This document shows, one piece after another, positions 3-35,155 of a stretch of DNA of 35,733 bases. The notes under the pieces are model-generated. The model was not told where the DNA came from and ran no database searches. It saw only the letters and a program-made list of their open reading frames with translations. The DNA lies in contig WGDG01000264.1 of NCBI GenBank assembly GCA_015493425.1, forward strand, positions 1 through 35,733, in the 5' to 3' direction. Position 1 is the first letter of the stretch, and every line of letters begins with the position of its first letter. Made by a program: the position numbers and the translations under genes. The DNA comes from Sulfurovum sp. GTDB taxonomy: Bacteria; Campylobacterota; Campylobacteria; Campylobacterales; Sulfurovaceae.

Positions 3-62
3 GAGATACTGGAGATACTCCGTGCTTTGGAAGATGAGATTAATGCACTGGAAGGGGGATAG
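3..62 (+). CDS. 3' end of upstream ORF (possibly the HsdS specificity subunit C-terminus)
   Basis: Open frame EILEILRALEDEINALEGG* ending at TAG 60-62, just before the hsdR GTG start at 64; HsdS assignment rests only on gene order. Confidence 0.35.
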   Translation, partial: EILEILRALEDEINALEGG

Positions 63-63
63 A

Positions 64-3000
64 GTGGAGAAGATCACCGAAAATGAGATAGAAGAATTTG
101 CCATAGAACTGTTAGAGCAGCAAGGATACACCTATGTCTACGCTCCGGACATTGCCCCTGACAGTGAAACACCCATGCGAACCTCTTTTGAGGAGGTACT
201 GCTCAAAGAGAAGACACTCTCCGCCCTCCAGAAGATCAACCCCACTCTTGACTATGACCTGATAGAAGAAGCCTATAAACAGATAGAACGCATCAAATCG
301 CCTGACCTTTTGGTGGATAATGAAACCTTTCATACGATGCTGACAGAGGGCATTACCGTAGAACGGCAGCAGGACGGTGTGGCCAGAGGAGAGATCGTCA
401 AGCTGGTGGATTCTGATGATGTGCAATCGAATGACTTCATGGTAATGAACCAGTTTACTGTTGTAGAAGACGGTGTGAACAAGCGACCGGACCTCATACT
501 CTTTGTGAACGGGTTGCCGTTGGTGGTCATAGAACTGAAAAACCCTGTCGATGAGAATGCGACCATCAAGTCCGCCTACAAGCAGATACAGACCTATAAA
601 AGCTCCATTCCTTCCCTCTTTACCTACAATGCCTTCTGTGTTATCTCTGACGGGCTGGAAGCCAAAGCCGGTACCATCTCGGCAGGCTGGACGCGCTTTA
701 TGGCGTGGAAGAGCAGCGACGGCAAGGGTGAAGCCTCCAAGCTTGTTTCCCAGGTGGAAACGCTCATTAAAGGGATGCTCAATCCTGTAACATTGCTCGA
801 TTTGGTACGCAGCTTCATTGTTTATGAAAAGAGTGCCAAAGAGGACAGCAAAACAGGACTGACGACTATAGAGACAGTGAAAAAGCTGGCTGCATACCAT
901 CAGTACTATGCCGTCAACAAAGCTGTAGCTTCTACACTTCGGGCAGTTGCTATGGATAACTATGAAGATAAAGTAGCCGAAGATCCTGTGGCGTATGGGC
1001 TTCCCAGTGTAGAGAACCAGCCCAAAGGAGACAGGAAAGCTGGGGTAGTGTGGCATACACAGGGGAGCGGAAAATCGCTTTCGATGGTATTTTATACTGG
1101 GAAGATCGTATTGGCACTGGACAACCCAACGGTACTGGTGATCACGGACAGAAACGATCTGGATGATCAGCTCTTCGATACCTTCGCCTCCTCACAAAGC
1201 CTGCTCAGGCAGACACCAGTACAGGCAGAAGACAGGGAACACCTGAAAACACTTTTGAAAGTGACTTCCGGCGGTGTGGTTTTTACCACCATTCAGAAGT
1301 TCCAGCCCGAAGAGGGGAATGTATATGATGTGCTTTCTGAGAGAAAGAACATCATTGTCATCGCAGATGAAGCGCATAGAACGCAGTACGGGTTTAAAGC
1401 CAAGACCGTAGATGAGAAAGATACCGAAGGGAATGTCGTTGGCAAAAAAATCGTCTATGGGTTTGCCAAGTATCTCAGAGATGCCCTGCCCAATGCCACC
1501 TATCTCGGATTTACCGGAACCCCCATAGAGAGTACCGATGTCAATACGCCTGCGGTGTTTGGAGATTATGTCGATATTTATGATATTTCACAGGCGGTGG
1601 AAGATGGTGCTACGGTCAAGATCTACTATGAGAGCAGGCTGGCGAAGATCAATCTAAGCGATGAAGGAAAGAAGCTTGTTAAAGAGCTAGATGATGAGCT
1701 TCGAGGTGACGACCTGAGTGAAACACAGAAAGCCAAAGCCAAATGGACACAGCTTGAAGCACTCATAGGGAGTGAAGACCGTATTCGAGAGGTCGCCAAA
1801 GATATTGTCACCCACTTTGAAGCCAGACAGGAGGTGTTCGAGGGTAAAGGGATGATCGTAGCGATGAGCAGACGGATTGCGGCGAAGCTGTATGAGGAGA
1901 TTATCAAGATTAGACCTCAGTGGCACAGTGACGATCTGGACAAGGGAGCCATTAAGGTAGTGATGACTGCCAGTTCCAGTGACGGACCAGAGATCGCCAG
2001 ACACCATACAACCAAGCAGCAGAGACGGGAACTTGCCAATCGCATGAAAGACCCTACTGATGAACTGAAATTGGTCATCGTGCGTGATATGTGGCTGACA
2101 GGTTTCGATGCACCTTCATTGCATACACTCTATATAGACAAACCAATGCAGGGTCATAACCTGATGCAGGCGATCGCAAGGGTCAACAGGGTTTACAAGG
2201 ATAAGCCGGGAGGTTTGGTGGTGGACTACCTGGGAATTGCCAGTGACCTAAAAAAAGCACTGTCGTTCTACAGTGACAGCGGAGGCAGGGGAGACCCGGC
2301 ATTGGCACAGGAACAGGCTGTAGCACTTATGTTGGAAAAACTGGAAGTGGTCTCGCAGATGTTTCATGGATTTGCCTATGAAGAATACTTTGAGGCAGAT
2401 ACCAGAAGGAAGCTCTCCATCATTCTTGAAGCGGAAGAGCATATATTGGGACTGGAAGACGGTAAGAAACGCTATATCGATGAAGTGACGGCACTCTCTC
2501 AGGCATTTGCCATTGCCGTGCCGCATGAAGAGGCGATGGATGTCAAAGATGAAGTCTCCTTCTTTCAGGCAGTCAAAGCCAGACTGGTGAAGTTTGACAG
2601 TACCGGCAGCGGAAAGAGCGACGAGGAGATGGAGACGACCATCCGGCAGGTCATAGACAAAGCACTGGTGACCGAACAGGTAATAGACATCTTCGACGCA
2701 TCGGGGATCAAAAAACCGGACATCTCCATTCTCTCCGAAGAGTTCCTCTTGGAAGTGCAGGGGATGAAACATAAGAACATCGCCATGGAAGTCCTCAAAA
2801 AGCTGCTCAATGACGAGATAAAGACCCGCGCCAAAAAGAACATCGTACAGAGCAAGACACTGATGGAGATGCTGGAAAACTCCATTCAGAAGTACCATAA
2901 CAAGATCATTACCGCAGCAGAAGTGATTGAGGAGTTGATACAGCTTAGTAAGGAAATTCACAAGATGGATGAAGAGCCCAAAGAGATGGGATTAACCGAC

Positions 3001-3276
3001 TTTGAGTATGCATTCTATACCGCAGTATCCGACAATGAAAGTGCGAAAGAGGTTATGCAAAAAGAGGTGCTACGTGACTTGGCTGTTGTATTGACTGAAA
3101 GAGTGAAGGCTAACGCCTCAATTGACTGGACGATCAAGGAAAGTGTTAGGGCAAAACTAAAGGTAATCGTCAAGCGAACATTGCGACAGTTTGGGTACCC
3201 ACCCGATATGCAGAAACTGGCAACCGAAACCATACTTAAGCAGGCGGAGATGATAGCGAGTGAGTTGGCGGCATAG
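64..3276 (+). CDS. hsdR: Type I restriction-modification system, restriction (R) subunit HsdR
   Basis: Nuclease motif RPDLILFVNGLPLVVIELKNP; Walker A HTQGSGKS; DEAHRTQYG; GFTGTPI; helicase motif VI-like region QAIARVNRVY. Likely GTG start at 64 (residue 15 of the ORF track). Confidence 0.95.
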   Translation: MEKITENEIEEFAIELLEQQGYTYVYAPDIAPDSETPMRTSFEEVLLKEKTLSALQKINPTLDYDLIEEAYKQIERIKSPDLLVDNETFHTMLTEGITVERQQDGVARGEIVKLVDSDDVQSNDFMVMNQFTVVEDGVNKRPDLILFVNGLPLVVIELKNPVDENATIKSAYKQIQTYKSSIPSLFTYNAFCVISDGLEAKAGTISAGWTRFMAWKSSDGKGEASKLVSQVETLIKGMLNPVTLLDLVRSFIVYEKSAKEDSKTGLTTIETVKKLAAYHQYYAVNKAVASTLRAVAMDNYEDKVAEDPVAYGLPSVENQPKGDRKAGVVWHTQGSGKSLSMVFYTGKIVLALDNPTVLVITDRNDLDDQLFDTFASSQSLLRQTPVQAEDREHLKTLLKVTSGGVVFTTIQKFQPEEGNVYDVLSERKNIIVIADEAHRTQYGFKAKTVDEKDTEGNVVGKKIVYGFAKYLRDALPNATYLGFTGTPIESTDVNTPAVFGDYVDIYDISQAVEDGATVKIYYESRLAKINLSDEGKKLVKELDDELRGDDLSETQKAKAKWTQLEALIGSEDRIREVAKDIVTHFEARQEVFEGKGMIVAMSRRIAAKLYEEIIKIRPQWHSDDLDKGAIKVVMTASSSDGPEIARHHTTKQQRRELANRMKDPTDELKLVIVRDMWLTGFDAPSLHTLYIDKPMQGHNLMQAIARVNRVYKDKPGGLVVDYLGIASDLKKALSFYSDSGGRGDPALAQEQAVALMLEKLEVVSQMFHGFAYEEYFEADTRRKLSIILEAEEHILGLEDGKKRYIDEVTALSQAFAIAVPHEEAMDVKDEVSFFQAVKARLVKFDSTGSGKSDEEMETTIRQVIDKALVTEQVIDIFDASGIKKPDISILSEEFLLEVQGMKHKNIAMEVLKKLLNDEIKTRAKKNIVQSKTLMEMLENSIQKYHNKIITAAEVIEELIQLSKEIHKMDEEPKEMGLTDFEYAFYTAVSDNESAKEVMQKEVLRDLAVVLTERVKANASIDWTIKESVRAKLKVIVKRTLRQFGYPPDMQKLATETILKQAEMIASELAA

Positions 3277-3389
3277 AGGTTTTGTGTATCAGGGGTAAAG
3301 AGTAATATCAGATATATTTTGGTATCATTTAAGAAATTATTAAAAAAAGGGTGCGAAGTTGCAACATAGTACCCTTTAATGGATACCTT

Positions 3390-5702
3390 ATGAAACGAAA
3401 AGCCACTTTCTTTCCAAAACCGCCCAAAAAAAATTCCTCCGACCACAATTCTAGAAAAGAGATACCCAAATATCTTATCGAGACAGACCCCAATTTTTCA
3501 GGTAATTATTATGAGAGGATAGCTCCATATTTAAACGATGAACAGTTTAAGGAGTTGGCTAAAAAAGTCTATAACGAAAAATTTATTGAAAGGACAGGCC
3601 AAAATCAAAAGATGCAAAAAAAGCAGGTTGAAGCACTACTAAAAGAAGTAGTTATTAGTACTGAAGAACATCATGGGAAAGAAGATATTCTTGAACTGTT
3701 CGATATGTTGAAAAAGGAAAAAGCTGAAGAAAATCATCATCAAAAGTCGATGTCGGAGAATTTGTTGAAACCATATGTTTCTCCTGCGGAATATAAATTA
3801 CCAAAAAAATTGAAAATTAAACGCAAGCCAAAAAAAGAAAACTTGGATGAGACGGGTTATCATATCCTGGAACTGGCTGGACATTATGACGAAGGTCATT
3901 TTGTGAGAACAGGCAAGTGGGAAGGATTGAGTTATTATCCGTCTCGGGATATCATGTTGAAAGATGATGGAAAGTGGTACATAAAAAGCAATGAGTTAAG
4001 TGAACGAACAGATGAAGATGTTTTTGATGTGTTGGCTGATATGTCTGAATTTGAAAAGGTTTTTAATTATCATTGGCATGTCAAATATACCGATTTTAAT
4101 ATCGAAACAGGGCTGACAGCACGTTTTTCAAAGCGGGAGATCTCCGGTGAGGGTAGGCTAAAAAAGGTTGCAAAATATCTAGGACTACGGTATGTACCGG
4201 AAGAAAAAATACCCTTGGCACAAGGTGTTAAATCGATAAAAGAGCAGCATCATATCGATAGACAAAACAAATATAGACAGCTAATGATGAAATTTAAGCA
4301 TATAGAACAGCAGCAACAAAAAGATGCAAAAATAGAGAGCGTGGAGCAACATTTGGCGAAGCAAGTTACCCGTAAACATGAAGAACAAAGAAATTCATTT
4401 TACCTACAGGGAAATCTTACAGCTTTGTATCAAGAGATATTAGAATTGAAGATGACACTGCAAGATACGGAAGAGAAGTTGAATTCGCGAGAGAATCGGG
4501 TTAAGGAATTGGAAGATCAGGTTGTAAAAAAAGAGGCCAAAGTTACCGAGCTTGCATCAAAAGTGAATGAATTGGAGAAAAAATATAATCAAGAAGTTCA
4601 ACTAAGAAAAACAAAAGAAAACGGCCTTGCCAGGGAGAAAGATGCCGTTAAGGTGCTAACAAGTGAGTTAGCTTCAAAAACAGAACAACTAAATAAGGTA
4701 AACAGTAAAAAAATAAATGTAGAAAAAGAGCTCAGTACCACTAAGAAGACATTGAAGGAAAAAGAGAAAAAAAATAAAGAGCTTAAAGAAAGAGTTGAAC
4801 AACTGAAAGAGCTTGCGTATAGCGATCGAGACGGGTATAGAAATGGAGAGAAAACAGGTAGGAAGTTGACATATAAGCACTTGTATGAATTTAGAGAACA
4901 AAATATTAAAACCCTGAAAGATCAAATCAAGGAAAAAGAAGATGAGATTGCTGGTTTTGGGGCAAAAGTAGAAGAGTTAGAGACAAAGAAAAACCAGGAA
5001 GTTCAAAACAGTACTGAAAAAGAAAAGGAACTTGCAAAGGAGAAGGATGCCTTTAGTGAGATTAAGAGTAAGTTTGACTCACTAACAGAGCAATTTAATG
5101 AGTTAACTAGTGAAAAACTAAATTTAGAAGAAGGGCTCATCAGTGCCAATCGATCATTAAAAAGTGAAGAGAAAGAAAATGAAAACCTTAAAAAGGAAAT
5201 TGATAAACTGAGTGGACTTGTATATAGTGACCGTGATATATATCGAAATGGGGAGAAAACAGATAAAAAATTTACATATAAGCGCTTGTTTGAACTAAGA
5301 GATGAAAAACTACGTTTGTCTCAGAGTACTGTTGAAACGTATGATAATGAGAACAAAAAATTGCAAGAAGATATTACCCAGAGAGATTTAGAAATTGAAT
5401 GGCTTAGCGAACAACTTTTATTATTAAAGGAAAGTATACCTGAGTTGGATGAGCCTGAACTATTTATTGATGGGGAAGAATCTTATGCCAATATAGAGCT
5501 TGAAGCAAAGAAAAAAGAAAATGAAAATCTCACAGAAGTGATTTATAAGATGAGGGATTATGATATACCGAAGAGTGCTCTTGAAGGAGATATAGAAAAT
5601 ATTGTAAAAACAGTTAAGGAGGGGATATGGAGAAAACGAATCCAACCTCAAAAAAATACAGCTAGTTACAAGAGTAGTGGTGGTTTCAAACCTGGCAGAT
5701 AA
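3390..5702 (+). CDS. Large coiled-coil protein with N-terminal domain containing YHWHVKY (HxH) motif; function unknown
   Basis: Long open frame; N-terminal region HILELAGHYDEGHFVRTGKWEG...FNYHWHVKYTDFNIETGLTARFSKRE followed by an extended heptad-like Glu/Lys-rich coiled coil; ATG at 3390 preferred. Confidence 0.8.
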   Translation: MKRKATFFPKPPKKNSSDHNSRKEIPKYLIETDPNFSGNYYERIAPYLNDEQFKELAKKVYNEKFIERTGQNQKMQKKQVEALLKEVVISTEEHHGKEDILELFDMLKKEKAEENHHQKSMSENLLKPYVSPAEYKLPKKLKIKRKPKKENLDETGYHILELAGHYDEGHFVRTGKWEGLSYYPSRDIMLKDDGKWYIKSNELSERTDEDVFDVLADMSEFEKVFNYHWHVKYTDFNIETGLTARFSKREISGEGRLKKVAKYLGLRYVPEEKIPLAQGVKSIKEQHHIDRQNKYRQLMMKFKHIEQQQQKDAKIESVEQHLAKQVTRKHEEQRNSFYLQGNLTALYQEILELKMTLQDTEEKLNSRENRVKELEDQVVKKEAKVTELASKVNELEKKYNQEVQLRKTKENGLAREKDAVKVLTSELASKTEQLNKVNSKKINVEKELSTTKKTLKEKEKKNKELKERVEQLKELAYSDRDGYRNGEKTGRKLTYKHLYEFREQNIKTLKDQIKEKEDEIAGFGAKVEELETKKNQEVQNSTEKEKELAKEKDAFSEIKSKFDSLTEQFNELTSEKLNLEEGLISANRSLKSEEKENENLKKEIDKLSGLVYSDRDIYRNGEKTDKKFTYKRLFELRDEKLRLSQSTVETYDNENKKLQEDITQRDLEIEWLSEQLLLLKESIPELDEPELFIDGEESYANIELEAKKKENENLTEVIYKMRDYDIPKSALEGDIENIVKTVKEGIWRKRIQPQKNTASYKSSGGFKPGR
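4812..5621 (+). repeat. Internal approx. 135-codon tandem duplication in the coiled-coil protein; most conserved part (L.YSDRD.YRNGEKT.-K.TYK-L.E.R) at about 4812-4895 and 5217-5300
   Basis: LAYSDRDGYRNGEKTGRKLTYKHLYEFRE at 4812 and LVYSDRDIYRNGEKTDKKFTYKRLFELRD at 5217; offset exactly 405 bp; preceding coiled coils also align. Confidence 0.8.
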
Positions 5703-13630: not shown

Positions 13631-13681
13631 TATATCAACTGTATGTGAATTTTTTACCTGAATTCACATACAGTTGATATA
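13631..13681. repeat. 21-bp perfect inverted repeat with 9-nt spacer in a divergent intergenic region
   Basis: tatatcaactgtatgtgaatt (13631-13651) / aattcacatacagttgatata (13661-13681). Confidence 0.9.
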
Positions 13682-13791: not shown

Positions 13792-13977
13792 TTGCAAAGG
13801 AAAATATTGCTTCTCGAAGACGATCTGCAGCTGAACCATACCATCAGGCAGTTCCTTGAGCACCATGCGTATGCCGTACTCTCCGCCTACGATGCCCACC
13901 AGGCAAAAGATATACTCTATGAAACCGATATAGACCTGATGCTTCTGGATATCAAGGTGCCGCCATTCGCCTTCTAG
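13792..13977 (+). pseudogene. Truncated response-regulator receiver domain
   Basis: MQRKILLLEDDLQLNHTIRQFLEHHAYAVLSAYDAHQAKDILYETDIDLMLLDIKVP then frame loss; aligns with the intact RR at 15893. Confidence 0.8.
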
Positions 13978-14258
13978 ACAACCTCATATCAAACGCCATC
14001 AAATACAACAGAACCGGCGGCAGTATGGAGATCAGTTTGACATCTCAGTATTTCCGCATCAAAGACAGCGGCGTCGGCATTGCCCAGAAAGAACTCGCTA
14101 CGATCCAAGAACGCTTCAAACGTGCCAACAGCATCGAGGGCGGATTCGGCATAGGGCTCGATATTGTCCATCAGGTAGTGAAGTCTTACGGTTTTGAGAT
14201 AACGATAGACTCAAAAACAGATCAGGGAACGGAGGTAAGTGTTACATGGCAAAAATAG
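13962..14258 (+). pseudogene. Histidine kinase C-terminal (HATPase) fragment fused out of frame to the receiver fragment
   Basis: AIRLLDNLISNAIKYNRTGGSMEI (N box), IKDSGVGIAQKEL (G1), GGFGIGLDIVHQVV (G2); no DHp domain upstream. Confidence 0.85.
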
Positions 14259-14614
14259 TATTCATTTTCTGCATGGCATTTTTTTCATTATGGGGAGAGA
14301 ATCATGTAGATGAACATTTACTGCAAAAAGCATGTTTATCCTGTCATGCACAACAGCAGATCCCTTCGGAGATAATCTACCGCCGCTACCTGCTGAAGTA
14401 CTCTTCCACGTCAGTCATCAGACAGAAGATCTACGCGTACTTAAAGGCACCCTCCACCCAGGCATCGATCATGCCCAAACCGTTCTTCAGGAAGTTCCCT
14501 CTCAAAGAACCGTCAGAACTCGATGACAAAACACTGCAGAAGTTGATCGATGCCTATGTCGATCTCTATGATGTCAGGATGAAGATATATGTTGTACCCG
14601 AGAAAACCGATTGA
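14246..14614 (+). CDS. Small exported cytochrome c-like protein (CxxCH)
   Basis: Signal peptide; CLSCH motif; MPKPF block. Confidence 0.7.
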   Translation: MAKIVFIFCMAFFSLWGENHVDEHLLQKACLSCHAQQQIPSEIIYRRYLLKYSSTSVIRQKIYAYLKAPSTQASIMPKPFFRKFPLKEPSELDDKTLQKLIDAYVDLYDVRMKIYVVPEKTD

Positions 14615-14621
14615 TGTCAAA

Positions 14622-14639
14622 GTAACAATCAACTAACAA
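14622..14639 (+). promoter_or_regulatory. Candidate response-regulator site: GTAACA-N5-CTAACA (11-bp spacing)
   Basis: 14622 and 14633, followed by TTTATACTATAAT, upstream of the 14672 operon. Confidence 0.45.
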
Positions 14640-14671
14640 AAACTTTATACTATAATGGCAAAGGAGAATAT

Positions 14672-15106
14672 ATGAAGCAACTATTTATTTTAGTCTTATC
14701 GCTATTTGTAACTGTTTCTCTGTTAAGTGCCAATAAGAAAACATCTGACGAACAGACAGTAAAGCAACTTGTACAAAAAGTTAAACAAAGTCAAGGCGAC
14801 GAACGCCGAAAAGCGATGAATGCCCTCAAAGTCCAACTGCGTTCCATGAACCAAAATACACGCCGAAAAGTCATGATGGATCTTCAAAAAGGTTTTTCCG
14901 GTGAGCGACACGGTATGCAACGAGGCATGCAGAAGCATACAAGTCATGAAGGTCTTTCTTCAGGCCCTGTACAAAACATGCCCTCTTCCGGAAGAATGCA
15001 GACACATTCTTCACCACAATCACCCCTTCAATCCGCCCCCTCAATGCCTCATAAAAGTCCACAAATGCCTTCTCAGCATTTCAGGCAACCAGGAGGCCAT
15101 AGATAA
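14672..15106 (+). CDS. Exported Gln/Met/His/Ser/Pro-rich protein
   Basis: Signal peptide MKQLFILVLSLFVTVSLLSA; low-complexity C-terminus MPSSGRMQTHSS...MPHKSPQMPSQHFRQPGGHR; overlaps next gene. Confidence 0.7.
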   Translation: MKQLFILVLSLFVTVSLLSANKKTSDEQTVKQLVQKVKQSQGDERRKAMNALKVQLRSMNQNTRRKVMMDLQKGFSGERHGMQRGMQKHTSHEGLSSGPVQNMPSSGRMQTHSSPQSPLQSAPSMPHKSPQMPSQHFRQPGGHR

Positions 15107-15900
15107 TGCTTCCTCGTCTCGTCGGCTTTTTTTTCATAGCGAGTGTATTGCTGTTCGGATACACTGACAGTGATATTGACGGTGTAGACGACAGCATAGA
15201 CCTTTGCCCCGGCACACCTTTTGATGAACTGGTTGACAAATACGGCTGCTCCCAAAACAAACTCTTTCCCGGAAAACTCATTGTACAGATCGGAAGTGAT
15301 ACCAGTTTCAACCAGATAGACGACACTGTCAGCAATCTGAATATCTATGCCAACTATATGATTAAAGAGTGGAATTTTTCCATTGCCAACAGTAACTACT
15401 ATGTAACCAACCTTTCCAACGATGTTGCAGAGAACAATCTTTACCTGACCGCAGGCTATACATTCGTCAAAGACAATATACGCACGCGATTCTCTGTGGG
15501 TACCAAATTTGATCTCAGTGACCGGGAAAGCAGGGAACAGGAGAGAGATAACGACTATTACGCTTCCGTGAATGTCGAATACTTCTTCCAAAAGAAACAC
15601 AATCTCTTTTTCTACTACAGCTATACCGCCAGTGGAGACAGCGATGTCATCGATTATGAGAATTTCCACTCTGTTTCTGCAGGGTACGGCTACAGCGTCA
15701 CCGACAAGTGGTACACGGCACTCTCATACAATTATGCGCAGAACTACTACCCAGATACCGATGATTACCGGGCTGTTTCATGGTACAATTCCTACCGGTT
15801 CAACCAATCTGTCTATGCCACGCTGAACTATAGCCATACATTTGATGACATTTCCTACAGCCATATCGTTACCTTTACCATAGGAGCTTACTTTGATTAA
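15106..15900 (+). CDS. Predicted outer-membrane beta-barrel protein with TSP3-type Ca-binding motif
   Basis: DSDIDGVDDSIDLCPGTPFDELVDKYGC, followed by alternating aromatic beta strands ending in a terminal aromatic pattern (FTIGAYFD). Confidence 0.75.
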   Translation: MLPRLVGFFFIASVLLFGYTDSDIDGVDDSIDLCPGTPFDELVDKYGCSQNKLFPGKLIVQIGSDTSFNQIDDTVSNLNIYANYMIKEWNFSIANSNYYVTNLSNDVAENNLYLTAGYTFVKDNIRTRFSVGTKFDLSDRESREQERDNDYYASVNVEYFFQKKHNLFFYYSYTASGDSDVIDYENFHSVSAGYGYSVTDKWYTALSYNYAQNYYPDTDDYRAVSWYNSYRFNQSVYATLNYSHTFDDISYSHIVTFTIGAYFD

Positions 15901-16522
15901 ACTTCTTTTGCTTGAAGATGACCCCAATCTTGCCAAAACACTCAAGAAGTATCTCGAGCGCAACGGCTACAGTGTAACATGGGCAAAAAACGGAGAGGAG
16001 GCGATGGAGCTTACCTACGCCAACAGCTACGACCTATATCTTTTCGACATCAATGTCCCGCTCATTAACGGTATCGATCTGCTGAGTGACCTGCGCGATG
16101 CCGAAGATACGACACCGACCATCATCATCTCGGCACTGGTCGATGTGGAAAGCGTGACCAAAGGCTTCATTGCAGGTGCCGATGACTACCTGAAAAAGCC
16201 TTTTGATCCCGACGAACTTCTGGTGCGCATTCAGGCAAAGACATCCGGCTTGAAAAAAACCCTGAAGTTCAAAAACTTTGAAATAGACCTCCGGGATGAC
16301 AGTGTCTATAAAGATGGAGAGGAACTTTACCTGGGACAGGTACAAAAAAACATACTGCTGGCACTCATCAAAAACCACCCCAATCCTGTGACCAAAGAAG
16401 AGCTGCTTCTGCTTCATGAGAACCCGAGCGATGTCGCCCTGCGTGTGAATATCACAAAACTGAAAAAAAGTCTTAACGTATCCATAGAAAACGTTAGAGG
16501 AGTCGGCTATAAAATTATCTGA
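15893..16522 (+). CDS. OmpR-family response regulator
   Basis: Receiver: LLLEDDPNLAKTLKKYL, DLYLFDINVP, KKPFDPDELLVRI; winged-helix C-terminus ENVRGVGYKII. Confidence 0.93.
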   Translation: MIKLLLLEDDPNLAKTLKKYLERNGYSVTWAKNGEEAMELTYANSYDLYLFDINVPLINGIDLLSDLRDAEDTTPTIIISALVDVESVTKGFIAGADDYLKKPFDPDELLVRIQAKTSGLKKTLKFKNFEIDLRDDSVYKDGEELYLGQVQKNILLALIKNHPNPVTKEELLLLHENPSDVALRVNITKLKKSLNVSIENVRGVGYKII

Positions 16523-16562
16523 AAAAGAGTCGCTGATCAAGAGTTTTCTCCTCTTTTTTCTG

Positions 16563-17549
16563 GTGATAGAAGCTTTTTTGACCTTCATCTTCTACCAGTA
16601 CGAAAAGATAGAGGAAGAACATTTAAAAGAAAACCTTTTTCTCGAGATGAAAAACTACAGTTTCTTTTTTGACGATACCCGTTTCGACATAGACATTGTT
16701 CCGCACAAAAAAAACAGATCCCCCTATGAACTCTATATGGATAACAGATCGCTTTACATACTTGTACCCATGCCCTCTTCTCCCCGGGACATGCTCAAGG
16801 TCTATTACCCCAGAACAGCATTCACCAAACAGGTTGAGACATTGAGAAAAGGCATTCTGTACCAGTTTCTTTTTCTTACCCTGCTTGCCTTCATCATCTC
16901 TCTGCTTTTCTCTTTTTATGCGCTCAATCCTCTGCGAAGGTCTTTGTCACTGCTGGAGACTTTCATAAAAGATATCATACACGATCTCAATACTCCCATC
17001 AGCAACATCCTTATCAATCTCAAGATGATGGATGCCAAAAATGAGGAGGTGGAGAGCATTACACGCAGTACCAAAGCGATCTCCATGCTCCACAACAACC
17101 TCAATGCCTACCTGGAAAAAACAAAAAGTGAGAGTGAACGGTTCAGACTTCAGGAAGTGGTAGACGAACAGGTCGCCTTTTTTGCGCCCATGTATCACTA
17201 TCTTCAGTGGACTGTCGAAGAGGATGAACGTATTTTACTGACAGACCGTCATGCCTTCAGCCGTATTATTTACAATCTTCTCAGCAATGCATGCAAATAC
17301 AATACTTCTAATGGTTTCATACGTATTGAGACCATTGGAGATTCTCTGATCATCACTAACAGCAGTCATGGTATCAAAGAGCCTTCCAAGGTTTTTGAAC
17401 GTTTCTACAAAGAGAGTGAACGGGGACTCGGCATCGGCCTGCATATCGTCAGGGGACTCTCTGAGCAACTGCATATCAAACCCCGTCTCACTGTTGAGGG
17501 AACAACAGTAAAGGTAACACTTCAGCTTTCCAAGGTAACACTTAAGTAA
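16563..17549 (+). CDS. Sensor histidine kinase
   Basis: H box IIHDLNTPISNI; N box NLLSNACKYN; G2 RGLGIGLHIVRGL; two hydrophobic segments. True start probably a little upstream, overlapping the RR stop. Confidence 0.9.
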   Translation: MIEAFLTFIFYQYEKIEEEHLKENLFLEMKNYSFFFDDTRFDIDIVPHKKNRSPYELYMDNRSLYILVPMPSSPRDMLKVYYPRTAFTKQVETLRKGILYQFLFLTLLAFIISLLFSFYALNPLRRSLSLLETFIKDIIHDLNTPISNILINLKMMDAKNEEVESITRSTKAISMLHNNLNAYLEKTKSESERFRLQEVVDEQVAFFAPMYHYLQWTVEEDERILLTDRHAFSRIIYNLLSNACKYNTSNGFIRIETIGDSLIITNSSHGIKEPSKVFERFYKESERGLGIGLHIVRGLSEQLHIKPRLTVEGTTVKVTLQLSKVTLK

Positions 17550-17552
17550 CAC
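17514..17552 (+). promoter_or_regulatory. Candidate response-regulator sites: GTAACAC at 17514, 17535 and 17546
   Basis: Three identical heptamers; 21- and 11-bp spacing; located across the HK stop codon, upstream of the DUF2202 lipoprotein gene. Confidence 0.45.
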
Positions 17553-17596
17553 TACTGATTCATACTTCTTCTATCATTTATCAAAAAGGAGAACAG

Positions 17597-18799
17597 ATGA
17601 TCAAAAAATATATATTCGGATCGGCCATTACAGCTTCATTACTTTTAGTGGGATGCAGCGGAGGAAGCGATACTGTTACCAGTACAGATTCAACCTTGAG
17701 CACAGCAACAGGGTATGTGGTGGATTCAGCCGTACAAAACATGGACTATGACTGTGTAGCAGACAATGAGATGGACAAGGTCACCGGCGCAGACGGTGCA
17801 TTTACCTGTCAGAACATGAACCAGGTACGTTTCAGAATCGGCAAAATGGTACTGGGTGAGATCGAAACATTGCCTCAAGACGGTTATGTTCTTCCACAGG
17901 ACATGGTAGGAACAGACAGAGAGAACGTTACTGATCTGAAAGTGACTGCTATGGCACAGCTTTTGCAGTCACTCGATGAAAATGACGACTTAAGTGACGG
18001 CATTCAGATCCCTGATAATGTCAAAGCCCTCTTTGAAAATGAAAATTTCCATGAAGGAAACCTGATGCAGTATATGTCTCAGGCATCTATTGCACATGTT
18101 CGTACGCAGACAGAAGCACAGGAACACCTCAGAGAGACCATGCGGGACATGGGAATGGACCACAATGGTTCAGATTCGGAACATGGTATAGATCTTTCAC
18201 AGTATCCTATGTCAGATTTGACAGATGCACAAAAATATACCATTGCCTATATGTGGAATGAAGAAAAACTGGCAAAAGATCTTTACCTGGAACTCAATAA
18301 GATCTATCCGACACAACAGCTTGAGAAGATCGCAACACAGTCGGAAACGAAACACCAGGCGATGGTCGAGGCACTTGTTCAACGCTATGATCTGAACATC
18401 ACCAACCTTGTTGACTACAAAGAAAACTACTCAGAAGAGGAGTTAAGAGCATTTGGGCCGGGAGAATTCGGCGTACAGGATATTCAGGACCTGTACGACA
18501 CACTATATACAGAAGGACAAGCTTCTCAGCAAGCGTCACTTGAAGTCGGGTGTAAAGTTGAAGTCACTGATGTAGAGGATCTTCTCGATGAGATCCAAAT
18601 TGCAGAAAAGGTTAATGCGAGCGATCTCGTAGCAACATGGAATGTACTTCTCAGCGGAAGCTACAAGCACTACTGGGCATTTGACAAAGGACTAAAAAAC
18701 AAAGGTGTGACCGAAGGGTGTTGTTCACTTGGAACAGATTTCTGTCATCCCGAATATCCTCAAAATGAGAATGGTGGTAAAGGACAGAATAAACACTAA
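17597..18799 (+). CDS. Lipoprotein with C-terminal DUF2202 (ferritin-like) domain
   Basis: Lipobox LLLVGCSGG; EEKLAKDLYLELNKIYPTQQLEKIATQSETKHQAMVEALVQRYDL; GSYKHYWAFDKGLKNKGVTEGCC...FCHPEYPQ. Confidence 0.85.
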   Translation: MIKKYIFGSAITASLLLVGCSGGSDTVTSTDSTLSTATGYVVDSAVQNMDYDCVADNEMDKVTGADGAFTCQNMNQVRFRIGKMVLGEIETLPQDGYVLPQDMVGTDRENVTDLKVTAMAQLLQSLDENDDLSDGIQIPDNVKALFENENFHEGNLMQYMSQASIAHVRTQTEAQEHLRETMRDMGMDHNGSDSEHGIDLSQYPMSDLTDAQKYTIAYMWNEEKLAKDLYLELNKIYPTQQLEKIATQSETKHQAMVEALVQRYDLNITNLVDYKENYSEEELRAFGPGEFGVQDIQDLYDTLYTEGQASQQASLEVGCKVEVTDVEDLLDEIQIAEKVNASDLVATWNVLLSGSYKHYWAFDKGLKNKGVTEGCCSLGTDFCHPEYPQNENGGKGQNKH

Positions 18800-18827
18800 T
18801 TCTTTTCTCTCCATCTCTTCCTTCTTT

Positions 18828-18851
18828 CCAGCCTGCCAGGATGCAGGTTGG
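18828..18851 (+). terminator. Putative terminator hairpin CCAGCCTGC...GCAGGTTGG
   Basis: 9-bp stem with one G-T pair; related hairpin follows the second DUF2202 gene. Confidence 0.55.
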
Positions 18852-18924
18852 AACATTCTATCTAATCCACTTTTAGTTCATAAACAAATATTATAATATC
18901 TATAACCAAACTAAAAGGATTCCT

Positions 18925-19350
18925 ATGATACACAAAAACACTCTTCTTATTACAGCTGTTTTACTTTCAACCGTCACCGCTGCGACTGCACAAAATCCAG
19001 AAACGCTCTTTGACAACAAATGCGGTATCTGCCACGTCAAGACAAAACCTGCCGATATGTCATCCCTGATGGCACCGCCCCTTATGGGTGTTATGCGTCA
19101 TGTAAAAATGAAATACCCTACAAAAGAGCAGGCTGTACCATTCATGGTCGACTATGTACTTCAGCCCAGTAAAACAAAAGCCGTCTGCATGCCACAGAAG
19201 ATTCAGAGATTTGGTCTGATGCCTTCACAAAAAGGAAATGTGACAAAAACCGAACTTGAAGCTATTACAGCATGGATGTACGACAATTTCCCGCCAGCAG
19301 ATTTTAAAGGCGGGCAAGGACGAGGAATGGGCATGAAAGGCAAGATGTAA
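18925..19350 (+). CDS. Exported monoheme cytochrome c-like protein with Gly/Met/Lys tail
   Basis: Signal peptide; CGICH; RFGLMPSQKGNVTKTELEAITAWMYDNFPP; C-terminus GGQGRGMGMKGKM. Confidence 0.8.
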   Translation: MIHKNTLLITAVLLSTVTAATAQNPETLFDNKCGICHVKTKPADMSSLMAPPLMGVMRHVKMKYPTKEQAVPFMVDYVLQPSKTKAVCMPQKIQRFGLMPSQKGNVTKTELEAITAWMYDNFPPADFKGGQGRGMGMKGKM

Positions 19351-19361
19351 TTTTGCAACGG

Positions 19362-19379
19362 GTAACACCAAGGTAACAC
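19362..19379 (+). promoter_or_regulatory. Candidate response-regulator sites: GTAACAC at 19362 and 19373 (11-bp spacing)
   Basis: Exact direct repeat followed by TATACT at 19388; non-coding. Confidence 0.5.
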
Positions 19380-19449
19380 TCTTACTTTATACTTTGCATA
19401 CTCCATGGAAACAACTACATGGTACATATTGATCAAAAAAGGACAAACT

Positions 19450-19707
19450 ATGAAAAAACTTTTACTTACTTCACTGCTTCTCACCACCATCACACTGACG
19501 GCAAATGCTTCAGAAACGAATCAGGAGGCATACCGGAATCAAATGAAAAATAAATACGGTGCCGGTGCCAACGAAGCAAAGTACCAGGAAAAGCAACAAT
19601 ATCGTTACGGTTCAACCGGTTCAGGTCATGGAGAACAAAAACGACTGAGAGATGGATCTGGCGGTGGTCAAATGCATGGTAAAGGTGGCGGTCGCGGAAA
19701 ACGATAA
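19450..19707 (+). CDS. Small exported Gly/Lys/Arg/His-tailed protein
   Basis: Signal peptide MKKLLLTSLLLTTITLTANA; C-terminus GSGGGQMHGKGGGRGKR. Confidence 0.65.
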   Translation: MKKLLLTSLLLTTITLTANASETNQEAYRNQMKNKYGAGANEAKYQEKQQYRYGSTGSGHGEQKRLRDGSGGGQMHGKGGGRGKR

Positions 19708-19724
19708 GTCTCCCTTTTTCAAAT

Positions 19725-19742
19725 GAGGAGAGTACTCTCCTC
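19725..19742 (+). terminator. Palindromic hairpin GAGGAGAGTACTCTCCTC, probable terminator
   Basis: Perfect 18-bp palindrome 18 bp after the stop codon, with T-rich sequence downstream. Confidence 0.5.
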
Positions 19743-19822
19743 TATATTCCATTTTTCTTCTCACCCTTTTGTGGGTACAGTATCTTCATTTTTTACTCTT
19801 CATTTTATATAAGGAAACTTTT

Positions 19823-21058
19823 ATGCGCTATGCCTTCTATCTACTCCCCGCTTTTCTACTCTTAGGTTGTGGTCCAGGAGACCATATGGATGATTCAATG
19901 GATGAGACAACTGTTGTCACGACCGTTAATGATACCCTCTACTATGGAGACATCATCAACAATGATGTTATCGGACTGGATCTCAAACTTATGCAGCAGG
20001 TACAAACGATCAGCAGCAATGGTGAATATCCGTATGAGATCGCACAAGCACTGGGGGATGAACTCTATGTCCTTAATCGAAAAGACTATGTCATAGGTAT
20101 ATTAGACCCCATCACGAATACGGTCACAAAAGAGGTTCCTTTATCTTTTTATCCCCGCTCCATCAAGATCAATCTCAATGACATCCTGCTTACCTCTGCC
20201 AATGAACCAGCTGCTGCGATCATCAATTCCGATGTTGCCTCTATGACCTATGCAGATTCAAGCTACACAGAACCAATCTCGTATGGAGGAAGCAATGCGA
20301 CCGGACACCCGGTTTGGGTAGACGATACACATTTCCTGATTCTGGACAGAACAGAGAATACCGTTGAACTCTATGAGAAGGGTAATTTCCTCCCGATCGA
20401 TAAATTCATTACCAAAAGTTCAGTGCACCATGTGATGTTGAAAGAGGGTATATTTTATGGTATCGAGGAGGGAGAACAGAATGCTGCCTCACCCGGTATC
20501 TTGAAATTTTCCGTTGTGCACGGAAAGATCAACGTACTTATGGAGCGTCTGTTGTCAGACTTGAGTGGATTACCCGATGACTTCACCGCTGCAGGATGGG
20601 GTGCACATCACGGTGCATTTCACCCTACTCAAAACTATATCTATATAGGTTCAGCTGAAGGTAATGTTTTTGTTTTGGACCTTGCAAACCTGGGTCTTGC
20701 CGATACATTCAAATCAGGGAAAGGTATAGGACATTTCACCTTCTATGGTACTATGCTTATCACCACAAACCATTATGACACTTTCAAATCATTTTATAAT
20801 GCCAGCAACCCGAAAGATCACAAACTGATTAAGACATTGACTTTTGACGACCATATTTATGACGGTATCACCATGCAGTCACATACCACACATATTGTAG
20901 ATAACAAACTCTACTTTATGTTCAATACCGATCATGACAGTACTCTCTACAAGATAGATCTTGACACGATCAGTATTGAGAAGAATATACAATTACCGAA
21001 CCGTTACTGTCTCATGGGTTCTCTTCTTTCAGAACATACGACATCCACAGGTATGTAA
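19823..21058 (+). CDS. Predicted lipoprotein with beta-propeller-like repeats, His-rich
   Basis: Lipobox AFLLLGCGPG; repeated strand pattern; AAGWGAHHGAFHPTQNYIYIGSAEGNVFVLDL, ITMQSHTTHIVDNKLYF; start ATG 19823 preferred over the upstream start in the ORF track. Confidence 0.65.
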   Translation: MRYAFYLLPAFLLLGCGPGDHMDDSMDETTVVTTVNDTLYYGDIINNDVIGLDLKLMQQVQTISSNGEYPYEIAQALGDELYVLNRKDYVIGILDPITNTVTKEVPLSFYPRSIKINLNDILLTSANEPAAAIINSDVASMTYADSSYTEPISYGGSNATGHPVWVDDTHFLILDRTENTVELYEKGNFLPIDKFITKSSVHHVMLKEGIFYGIEEGEQNAASPGILKFSVVHGKINVLMERLLSDLSGLPDDFTAAGWGAHHGAFHPTQNYIYIGSAEGNVFVLDLANLGLADTFKSGKGIGHFTFYGTMLITTNHYDTFKSFYNASNPKDHKLIKTLTFDDHIYDGITMQSHTTHIVDNKLYFMFNTDHDSTLYKIDLDTISIEKNIQLPNRYCLMGSLLSEHTTSTGM

Positions 21059-21091
21059 TACCTTGCAACAGATGATAAAAAATCAATTCAC

Positions 21092-21129
21092 ATATAATTT
21101 ATAGTATATGCATATACTATGAATTATAT
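21092..21129. repeat. 38-bp palindrome (one symmetric mismatch; central 20 bp perfect ATAGTATATGCATATACTAT)
   Basis: Read from sequence; lies 34 bp upstream of the second DUF2202 gene. Confidence 0.85.
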
Positions 21130-21162
21130 TAGAACACTTTATAACAAAAAAGGAAACTTGAT

Positions 21163-21924
21163 ATGAAGAATCTCATCCGAAACACACTCTCAATCGGTGC
21201 TGTATTGGCTATAGCCATAGGTCTGAACGCATGTGGAGGCGGCAGCTCAGGTACAGGAAACCCGGGAGGCTCAACATCTTCAGGGGAGCTTCCCGCTGAT
21301 GTCCAGACTGCCATTGACGGTCCTATGTCAAACCTGACACAGGAAACAAAAGATGCTTTGGCCTATATGTACAGTGAAGAGGGTCTGGCACATGATGTTT
21401 ACATCAATATCTATACCATACAGCCTGCCAAACAACTGAAGAACATTGCTACCAAAGCTGAAGTCAAACATATAGATGCAGTCAACCAGTTGGCACAAAA
21501 ATATGATCTGAATATGACACAGTACCCCGACACGGATATACCTTACAGTATCGCAGGTATCGGTAACGGTACCTACCCTGTTGAGCAAGTACAATACCTC
21601 TACGACCTGCTTTACGACAAAGGCATACAGTCAATGCAGGATGCACTGGAGGTCGGGTGTATGGTCGAAGTCGTTGATGTCAGTGATCTTGATGAAGATA
21701 TCCAAAAGGCGCAGGCTTCCAATGCTGCAGATGTTGTAACCGTATTCGAGTTTTTAAGAGACGGAAGCTATAACCATTACTGGGCATTTGATCAGGGACT
21801 GAAAGACATGGGGATCACCGATGGCTGCTGTTCAATTCCTGATGCACTTGGATACAGTTTCTGTCATCCTGAATATCCCCAAAATGACAAAGGCAATGAA
21901 AATGGCGGAAAAGGACGTGGTTAA
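21163..21924 (+). CDS. Lipoprotein with DUF2202 domain (paralog of 17597-18799)
   Basis: Lipobox GLNACGGG; SEEGLAHDVYINIYTIQPAKQLKNIATKAEVKHIDAVNQLAQKYDLN; GSYNHYWAFDQGLKDMGITDGCC...FCHPEYPQ. Confidence 0.85.
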   Translation: MKNLIRNTLSIGAVLAIAIGLNACGGGSSGTGNPGGSTSSGELPADVQTAIDGPMSNLTQETKDALAYMYSEEGLAHDVYINIYTIQPAKQLKNIATKAEVKHIDAVNQLAQKYDLNMTQYPDTDIPYSIAGIGNGTYPVEQVQYLYDLLYDKGIQSMQDALEVGCMVEVVDVSDLDEDIQKAQASNAADVVTVFEFLRDGSYNHYWAFDQGLKDMGITDGCCSIPDALGYSFCHPEYPQNDKGNENGGKGRG

Positions 21925-32804: not shown

Positions 32805-34925
32805 TTAGAATGTGTAGCTGTATGTCAGCATGGCAAACCGGGGTGATGCCGGTGTGTAATAGTATTTATCACCCCAGCTTGCAGATGTTTTTTTCACTTC
32901 CGTCGCATAGGTTTTGTCGAACACATTGTTTACATTCAGCTGTACCCTGTGGTTTTCATACTGATATCCAAGCATCACATTGGTGATCAATTCGAAACCG
33001 TCGTATTTCTCCGTATTGGCATCATCCATATAGTAAGGGCCGTAGGTCAATGCTTCCACTCTTGCACTCAAACCGTTCAGATGATAGCCTGCAAAGAGTG
33101 AATACTGGTAGTCAGGGATAAATCGCTGTTTGTTCCCGGAGTAATCCACACCGTCGGAAACATAGTCCACATATTCATAATCATAAACGGAAGCATTCAT
33201 TCCCAGGTCAAATACCTCGGTGATGAAGTAATCCAGCGCCAGTTCCGCACCGATTCTTCTGGTCTCTCCAGCATTCTCATAATAGGTCGCCCCCTCTGCG
33301 CCGGGTACTGCAACGATTTCATCTTTGATCTTGTTGTAATATACAGAGAAATCCATACTCCATATTTTGCTCCTCTGTTTCAATCCGACTTCGTAGTTGA
33401 TGGAAGTGGACTTGTCCAAGGCGGGGAGTGTTGGGTCGTACCCTCTGTTGTTGCGTACTTCATTGTCTGTAGGTGCCTGATTCGCAGAGGCAATCAGGGC
33501 GTAGGCATTCATTGTCTTGTTCAAAGCATAGGTCGCGCCTATCTTGGGAGAGTACAGATCGAAAGACTGCTTGATCTCGTAGGCTCCCGAACCCGGTACA
33601 TAGTTACCTGCGCCATAGTCATAACGCGTTATTTCATTACCGTTCGTGTCGAATTCGAGGTGGTCATAGCGCATCCCTATATCGACAAGCAGTTTTTCTG
33701 TCGGAGAAAATGTCTCCTGCAGATATCCGCCAAAGAGCGTATTGTCGCCTGCTTCCGTATTAGCCAATGCACCTCTTTCATCAGAAGTAACACGAACGAT
33801 CTTTGTAGTGGGGCCATGGTAGCCATAGGATGTTTTCGTGTCATAGTCACGGTATTCATACTTCTTGCTGTCGTCATGCTTGTCGAGTCTTCCTGTCAGA
33901 CCGAAGACCAGGTTCGCATCCTGACTGAAAAGCGTATGCGAATAGTCAAAAGCAAGATCCAACCCCATGACGTAATTATCTTTGGAATCATTGATCATAC
34001 CAGTAACGGGATGATAGTGCTCCCATTGGGTGAAATAAGCCTGTGGCTTGAACAACAGATCACCGAACTCTTTTTCATAGTGTGTATTGAAAAAGAAACT
34101 TTTGCTGTATCGTCCGCTTTTCTGCCAGGCACCTTCATCGTCGCCATTTTTCGTTTTCCCGGTATCAAGGTAATACTCATAGCCTGTTTTTCCAAGCGAT
34201 TGCGGCAACTGAAGATTCGCTTCGGAGTAAGCAAATTCTGTTTCGAGTGTCGATTCATCTTCAAAAATATGACCATACTTCAAGCTCAACTGTGTTGTAT
34301 CAAAGTCGTTCCACTCTCTCCAATCATTGGAAGATTGTCTGCGCGAGAGGCTCACCCCGATATAATTGGAATCATCAATTTTGTAACTTCCTTTTACATT
34401 GGCGTTGAGTGTATCAAAGCTTCCATATCCAATCTTGACACGATTCGTTTCAGTATCAAAGACCGATTTGGATTTGATATACACAACACCGCCTGTTGCG
34501 TTTGCCGCATAGATGGAACCAGGTCCCTTAAAGACTTCAACACTTTCCATATCATCGATGTCGACAAAATCCATCCGGGTAAAACTGTCGGGGTCGGTCA
34601 TAGGTACACCATCTCTCATCACCATGATCTCCCTGATACCGTAACGCGCTTTCAGCCCTGCACCTCTGATAATCAGTCTGCTGTCATAGCCGTTGTTTTT
34701 TCCCATAGAAATGACTCCGGGAACCGTTTCGAGCACATCCTTTACATTCAGAACATTACGCTCCTCGATCTCTTTTGAATCAATGACGGCAATACTCTGC
34801 GGTACCTCTTTGCTCATGCGTTCAAATTTCGTTGCCGTAACAGTCAATGTGTCCAGATCGAGATTCTCCCCCACAAGAAACGTAGCAGTTAGACTGCTGA
34901 TCAATAACATTTTCCTCATATACAA
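32805..34925 (-). CDS. TonB-dependent receptor
   Basis: DLDTLTVTATKFERMSKEVPQSIAVIDSKEIEE plug; GPGSIYAANATGGVVYI; C-terminal aromatic barrel signature; 9 bp before the polyferredoxin start. Confidence 0.92.
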   Translation of the reverse strand: MYMRKMLLISSLTATFLVGENLDLDTLTVTATKFERMSKEVPQSIAVIDSKEIEERNVLNVKDVLETVPGVISMGKNNGYDSRLIIRGAGLKARYGIREIMVMRDGVPMTDPDSFTRMDFVDIDDMESVEVFKGPGSIYAANATGGVVYIKSKSVFDTETNRVKIGYGSFDTLNANVKGSYKIDDSNYIGVSLSRRQSSNDWREWNDFDTTQLSLKYGHIFEDESTLETEFAYSEANLQLPQSLGKTGYEYYLDTGKTKNGDDEGAWQKSGRYSKSFFFNTHYEKEFGDLLFKPQAYFTQWEHYHPVTGMINDSKDNYVMGLDLAFDYSHTLFSQDANLVFGLTGRLDKHDDSKKYEYRDYDTKTSYGYHGPTTKIVRVTSDERGALANTEAGDNTLFGGYLQETFSPTEKLLVDIGMRYDHLEFDTNGNEITRYDYGAGNYVPGSGAYEIKQSFDLYSPKIGATYALNKTMNAYALIASANQAPTDNEVRNNRGYDPTLPALDKSTSINYEVGLKQRSKIWSMDFSVYYNKIKDEIVAVPGAEGATYYENAGETRRIGAELALDYFITEVFDLGMNASVYDYEYVDYVSDGVDYSGNKQRFIPDYQYSLFAGYHLNGLSARVEALTYGPYYMDDANTEKYDGFELITNVMLGYQYENHRVQLNVNNVFDKTYATEVKKTSASWGDKYYYTPASPRFAMLTYSYTF

Positions 34926-35155
34926 TTCTCCTTCAATATCTTTTGAAGCGAGAATGCTAACGCAGTAGAGTTAATTTTGTGTTAAGAGCTAATTTAGGGT
35001 GTTTTTCCACAGCAAGAGTTAACGCAAGAGATTGAAGAATCTGATGAAAATAAAATGCCTACCAAAACACACCGGCCGGATACGTAAACGTACCACTGGG
35101 CTTAAACGCTACCTATTTTTCACACTAAAACCAAAAACCTTATAATCTAACATTT

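Follow-up and report, generated by a model that had tools for sequence, protein, structure and literature searches.

Organization of the locus

The window analysed here, a stretch of 35,733 nucleotides, is contig C264 of a Sulfurovum-like genome (G000, 1.98 Mb), and at positions 14246-21924 it holds a contiguous block of ten open reading frames in one orientation, which include a response regulator (RR) and a sensor histidine kinase (HK). An earlier note on this DNA had counted nine such genes; the common orientation and the contiguity stand, the count does not. Our subject is a direct-repeat operator that probably ties this two-component system (TCS) to the envelope proteins encoded around it, two of them of the DUF2202 family, and the signal to which such a regulon might respond. 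The earlier note had also taken every product of the block, the RR/HK pair excepted, to be exported or a lipoprotein, and reading the sequence bears this out, signal peptides and lipoboxes being called by eye with no predictor used. Pfam families are clear for RR, HK and the two DUF2202 proteins, and weak or absent for the cytochrome-like, barrel, peptide and propeller genes.

All genes of the block are on the forward strand. The first gene of the operon, small1 (14672..15106), encodes an exported peptide conserved beside barrel, RR and HK, with MNxLKxxLRxMN as its conserved helical core and a tail rich in His, Met and Gln; a profile search placed it in no Pfam family over the cut-off and hence gave no match to DUF305. 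The barrel gene (15106..15900) encodes a putative outer-membrane beta-barrel with a TSP3-like calcium motif at its N-terminus, a motif already pointed out in the earlier note and plain as DxDxDG, the match to TSP_3 itself being weak (E 0.023). RR (15893..16522) matches Response_reg (8e-28) and Trans_reg_C (1.4e-6). HK (16533..17549) has a short periplasmic domain and matches HATPase_c (1.6e-12), its HisKA score of 24.9 bits falling slightly below the cut-off of 26.9; it probably starts at a CTG near 16533 rather than at the listed GTG at 16563, and H20, E28 and M29, numbered from that GTG, are invariant across 26 HKs. Judged by its receiver and winged-helix RR and its HATPase kinase, the pair is a two-component system of the OmpR/PhoB family.

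Further downstream, DUF2202a (17597..18799) is a lipoprotein with an additional N-terminal domain and a C-terminal ferritin-like DUF2202 domain, and its gene is followed by a terminator-like stem at 18826-18853. The product of cytB (18925..19350) is an exported c-type cytochrome-like protein with a CGICH motif (Cytochrome_CBB3 21.1 bits, below the cut-off of 27), and in the closest relatives its gene adjoins DUF2202a or small2. The exported small2 peptide (19450..19707) ends in a tail, LRDGSGGG..GGGRGKR, common to DUF1104-type peptides of relatives. The propeller gene (19823..21058), possibly co-transcribed with small2, encodes a His-containing beta-propeller lipoprotein (AF2 pLDDT 75, with propeller matches in Foldseek); we rejected an identity as an AztD-like zinc chaperone because AztD was one of many generic propellers in the Foldseek list. 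The last gene, DUF2202b (21163..21924), encodes a second ferritin-like lipoprotein. That the block holds two DUF2202 proteins and two CxxCH proteins, as had been said before, is confirmed by PF09968 scores of 73.7 bits for DUF2202a and 83.9 bits for DUF2202b (cut-off 22) and by the motifs CLSCH in cytA and CGICH in cytB.

A shared operator and promoter

Repeats of GTAACA 11 bp apart were first spotted by eye in the intergenic DNA, and they resolve into a direct-repeat operator, STAACA-N5-STAACA, with an 11-bp period, found upstream of small1, DUF2202a and small2. The first copy (GTAACAATCAACTAACA, 14622..14638, + strand) has a -10 region directly downstream and forms part of the promoter of small1-barrel-RR-HK, the second (GTAACACTTAAGTAACA, 17535..17551, +) lies 62 bp upstream of DUF2202a, and the third (GTAACACCAAGGTAACA, 19362..19378, +) lies upstream of small2. 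These three exact copies in the window compare with none in 100 shuffles. Over the 455 kb of the window and the related loci, pairs of GTAAC number 36 at a spacing of 11, and no other spacing has more than 4. A pattern search of the genome itself found four copies of the operator, three of them in the block and a fourth, without a promoter element, upstream of a ribosomal-protein-like gene; when the -10 pattern was included, three sites were left, every one inside the block.

The -10 element (TATACT or TATAAT) stands at one fixed offset from the operator. Among 58 aligned sites, which are those within 100 bp of a start and were not selected for a -10 element, TANNNT is found 9 bp past the box in 52, and the A and the last T are invariant in all 58, part of these sites coming from closely related loci and so not being fully independent. 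The PhoB box consists of direct repeats with an 11-bp period in lieu of the -35 element, with the -10 at a fixed distance. The Sulfurovum operator shares this architecture, although its half-site (GTAACA) and its regulon differ, and from its sequence the geometry is that of an OmpR/PhoB-type activator standing in for the -35 element. We infer that the block's own RR binds the STAACA-N5-STAACA box, because the two are linked, because the operator heads the operon of the RR itself and because they co-occur among genomes.

This sequence evidence strongly supports a regulon structure for the block. The co-regulation proposed in the earlier note is supported by the operator and promoter that the three sites share; cytB, propeller and DUF2202b, however, have no operator copy of their own before them in the window. 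Sites of the form TTAACA-N5-TTAACA were left out of the regulon as a second class, which is found in nearly every Sulfurovum genome and probably belongs to other regulators. This class also precedes TonB copper-receptor-like genes in relatives and is possibly the mark of a different OmpR-type regulon; the window itself has a TTAAC-type repeat with the 11-bp period (34925-34985), 60 bp upstream of a gene for a TonB-dependent receptor (32808-34925, minus strand).

Conservation of the core genes

The gene order small1-barrel-RR-HK-DUF2202 recurs across Sulfurovum, which oxidises sulfur. Scanning with RR gave 34 loci in Campylobacterota (L023-L056) with RR identities of 54-92%, and in an all-against-all comparison of these and the window (35 loci) RR and HK were nearly always paired, small1 and barrel were each present in 27 and DUF2202 in 23, many of the remaining loci being cut by contig ends. 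The barrel was found in 28 of 60 genomes. When orthologues of RR were defined by at least 54% identity, 22 of 78 Sulfurovum genomes had 24 such loci, and DUF2202 lay within 5 kb of RR in 14 of them, for which the chance probability, computed like the next from rough gene copy numbers, is about 2e-26. In 4 of the 24 a Cu-oxidase_2 multicopper oxidase (MCO) lay within 5 kb in the place of DUF2202 (chance about 1e-5), and at none of the 24 did both occur within that distance, so that by position the two replace each other. Conservation of the neighbourhood, the check suggested with the original description, is therefore found in dozens of genomes and is not due to chance. The same genome also carries a paralogous RR-HK-peptide-barrel set on contig C292 (L135:636-3483; RR 48% and barrel 26% identity), and the pairing of barrel and TCS has therefore been duplicated.

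Operator targets in relatives

Box and -10 together occur at 73 sites in the 78 Sulfurovum genomes. Of these sites, 37 have an RR orthologue no more than 5 kb away, and the 22 genomes with such an orthologue account for 53; with the pattern reversed as a control, each genome and strand had 0 or 1 site. Away from the block, several of the genes headed by the operator are recognizable. At L136 it precedes a stand-alone CueO-like MCO, 62 bp past the box, and at L157 it heads an operon of an outer-membrane protein, a 203-amino-acid protein and CopA, the last being 81% identical to a protein of L122 that matches TIGR01511 with 579 bits (cut-off 397). Solitary DUF2202 genes follow the operator at L137 and L138, genes for a lipoprotein of 213-215 amino acids at L140 and L148, and genes for Gly/Arg-tailed peptides at L146 and L153. 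The peptide gene at L146 (1824-2763, genome G029) stands just before a gene for a membrane protein of 210 amino acids that is cytochrome b-like by inspection.

The slot after HK is filled in several ways. At L049/L128 and L122 it holds a box and a fusion of a lipoprotein with a CueO-like oxidase, these fusions scoring 300 bits against NF008205, under the equivalog cut-off of 525. L127 also has a lipoprotein-MCO fusion after HK, but its box is of the TTAACA type. At L054/L129 a propeller protein fills the slot, the one of L054 having its own operator. The N-terminal domain of DUF2202a recurs in the propeller protein of L133 (E 3e-14) and weakly in the oxidase of L049 (5e-8), and these similarities suggest a single lipoprotein design, controlled by one switch, in which DUF2202, propeller and oxidase can take each other's place as the head.

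The DUF2202 proteins

The DUF2202 family spans archaea to bacteria, and it has solved structures and no assigned function; in the literature searched we found no mention of DUF2202 or of MJ0754. An AF2 model of DUF2202b (pLDDT 80.7) has MJ0754 as its best match in the PDB (3q4n, 3q4r; Foldseek E 1e-7, 35% identity), followed by weak matches to bacterioferritins (E about 0.01). E72, E73, D78, E100, H103, E169, D172, D175, D190 and H205 are invariant in all of 24 DUF2202 sequences. As modelled, DUF2202 is a ferritin-like four-helix bundle with paired E/ExxH metal ligands. MJ0754 (PDB 3q4n, 3q4o, 3q4q, 3q4r) is of the same family and fold, but the proteins of the block differ from it in being lipoproteins, in the extra N-terminal domain (DUF2202a), in two probable disulfides and in a Gly-rich tail. 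A Cys4 metal site in the C-terminal domain was considered and rejected: C166 and C222 are both present in 17 of the 24 sequences and both absent in 7, C223 and C234 also co-vary, and this pairwise co-occurrence makes two disulfides probable instead.

Copper as the probable signal, and alternatives

Our best inference from these sequences is that the block is a copper-responsive envelope module. Copper is favoured because, among the operator targets of known function, none is clearer than the CueO-type oxidases and the CopA-type ATPases. In addition, CopA copies stand next to the block in G028 and G005, G016 has NosZ and a TonB copper-receptor-like gene in the vicinity of its block, and a NosL gene is present at L030. 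Copper alone induces CueO and CopA in Nitratiruptor, which belongs to this phylum, and the text consulted on that copper transcriptome names no gene of the Sulfurovum module (PMC10092412).

Two known systems offer parallels. In CopMRS of Synechocystis (copMRS and copBAC), a small exported protein rich in Met and His is encoded ahead of the RR-HK pair that regulates it, as small1 is, and the targets are of a periplasmic copper type, likewise found in the Sulfurovum regulon (PMC4335983). CopM, however, is a DUF305 protein and small1 is not, a barrel gene stands between peptide and RR in Sulfurovum, and the shared target there is DUF2202 or an MCO and not an HME-RND pump. CusRS of Escherichia coli is also an OmpR-type TCS for periplasmic metal, and a CueO-like MCO and a CopA-type ATPase are operator targets in Sulfurovum relatives, although in E. 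coli CueO and CopA respond to CueR. The Sulfurovum RR, moreover, passes no NCBIfam cut-off for a copper regulator (TIGR01387 94 bits against 279; copper/silver RR model 80 against 420), HK reaches 63 bits against the heavy-metal kinase model TIGR01386 (cut-off 293), and the effector slot is mostly held by DUF2202.

All in all, we think it fairly probable that the block forms a regulon for envelope stress which controls itself, resembles CopMRS and CusRS, serves most likely against copper and has DUF2202 as its main effector where others have the oxidase. HK would detect a signal in the periplasm, with excess copper (Cu(I)) the likeliest, and phosphorylate the OmpR/PhoB-type RR, which would bind the 11-bp-spaced STAACA-N5-STAACA repeats in place of a -35 element and activate the three promoters of small1-barrel-RR-HK, DUF2202a and small2. 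Their products would keep down the level of free copper outside the cytoplasm: the His/Met-rich and Gly-rich peptides might bind it, and DUF2202, ferritin-like and anchored to lipid, would work in the slot held elsewhere by a CueO-type MCO. That DUF2202 removes Cu(I) by oxidizing or storing it is a tentative suggestion. Perhaps the DUF2202 lipoproteins replace CueO without being homologous to it, as a ferritin-like envelope enzyme or store, di-iron or copper-loaded, for the removal of Cu(I) when oxygen is very low, a proposal that we likewise hold to be possible but doubtful; if true, DUF2202 would work where an oxygen-dependent MCO would fail.

Several observations weigh against this interpretation. 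No copper-annotated gene carries the operator in the genome itself, and the link to copper, through the MCO and the CopA operon, comes from relatives. Away from RR orthologues lie 36 of the 73 operator sites, 20 of them in the 56 genomes without an orthologue of at least 54% identity, and some sites in the genus head genes with no evident link to copper (e.g. hydrogenase- or biosynthesis-like), which may reflect chance or other regulators. At 6 of the 24 RR loci, some on short contigs, neither effector is found within 5 kb. The carboxylate and His ligands of DUF2202 are those expected at a di-iron or zinc site, zinc is present in one of the MJ0754 structures, and the four Cys of the C-terminal domain look like disulfides, so that copper chemistry at DUF2202 would be conjectural. 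The HME-RND pump to the left of the block has no operator, and of the CusA methionine triad Met573/Met623/Met672 it keeps in alignment a Met solely at the M672 position; with two of three ligands gone, this pump was rejected as evidence for copper.

Some weight, if not much, may be given to a general heavy-metal (Zn/Cd/Co/Ni/Cu) envelope response, in which divalent metal would be sensed, DUF2202 would sequester zinc or iron and the HME-RND would be its pump. The left-flank RND indeed belongs to the CusA/CzcA family (1013 bits, cut-off 701) and is as close to the zinc pump ZneA as to CusA, and the zinc in the MJ0754 crystal would suit such a role. An HME-RND operon also adjoins a related barrel-RR-HK set at L130, whose pump likewise has no Met at the aligned M573 position and is not Cus-like there. 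However, no operator precedes the RND operon in the window, and the named operator targets elsewhere are of a copper type. The block does lie between two RND operons, as the earlier note had placed it, but neither carries the operator, and membership of the module is not supported for either.

A response to redox or oxidative envelope stress, from reactive oxygen, sulfur or nitrogen species, seems unlikely. DUF2202 would here be a di-iron, peroxidase- or rubrerythrin-like enzyme with cytochromes carrying electrons, as its fold and its invariant E/ExxH/E/H ligands and the nearby c-type cytochromes cytA and cytB would allow, but cytA comes from another operon, cytB is outside the core, and the shared MCO and CopA targets are left unexplained. 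Least probable by a further step is a copper-supply regulon, for starvation or cuproenzyme loading, serving nitrous oxide reductase and cbb3 oxidase: the loading of cuproenzymes is a further role open to CopA-type ATPases, and the nos and receptor genes of G016 and L030 would fit, but detoxification is what CueO-like oxidases are for, the TonB receptors bear the different TTAACA box, and autoregulated small His/Met peptides suit excess more than lack. The regulated envelope system for metal or redox stress that the earlier note had envisaged is thus favoured as a regulated envelope metal system, its signal narrowed by us to copper as the likely one.

One operator common to DUF2202, CueO-like oxidases and a CopA operon gives DUF2202 a testable role in copper defence, and it hints at how vent bacteria with little oxygen might handle metal-rich fluids. 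Operator and promoter geometry together permit prediction of the regulon in uncultured Sulfurovum.

Upstream and flanking genes

The CLSCH gene cytA (14246..14614, +), which the earlier note had counted in the module, is not part of its core, being the last gene of a truncated operon, RR2-HK2-cytA. Just upstream lies the remnant of this second TCS (13792..14255, +), outside the module, in which residues 1-74 of RR2 are fused to residues 296-386 of HK2; the truncation may be a real deletion or an assembly join. Intact RR2-HK2-cytA sets occur in the same genome (contig C292, L135) and in G016 (L156), the order being seen at L030, L037, L135, L147 and L156, and cytA and cytUp therefore belong to the second system. 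The interval that separates the remnant from the divergently oriented cytUp contains a perfect inverted repeat of 21 bp, whose loop is 9 bp long (13631-13681). The left end of the window (22-5702) encodes a Type I restriction HsdR protein (TIGR00348, 598 bits) and an SMC-like protein of 783 amino acids.

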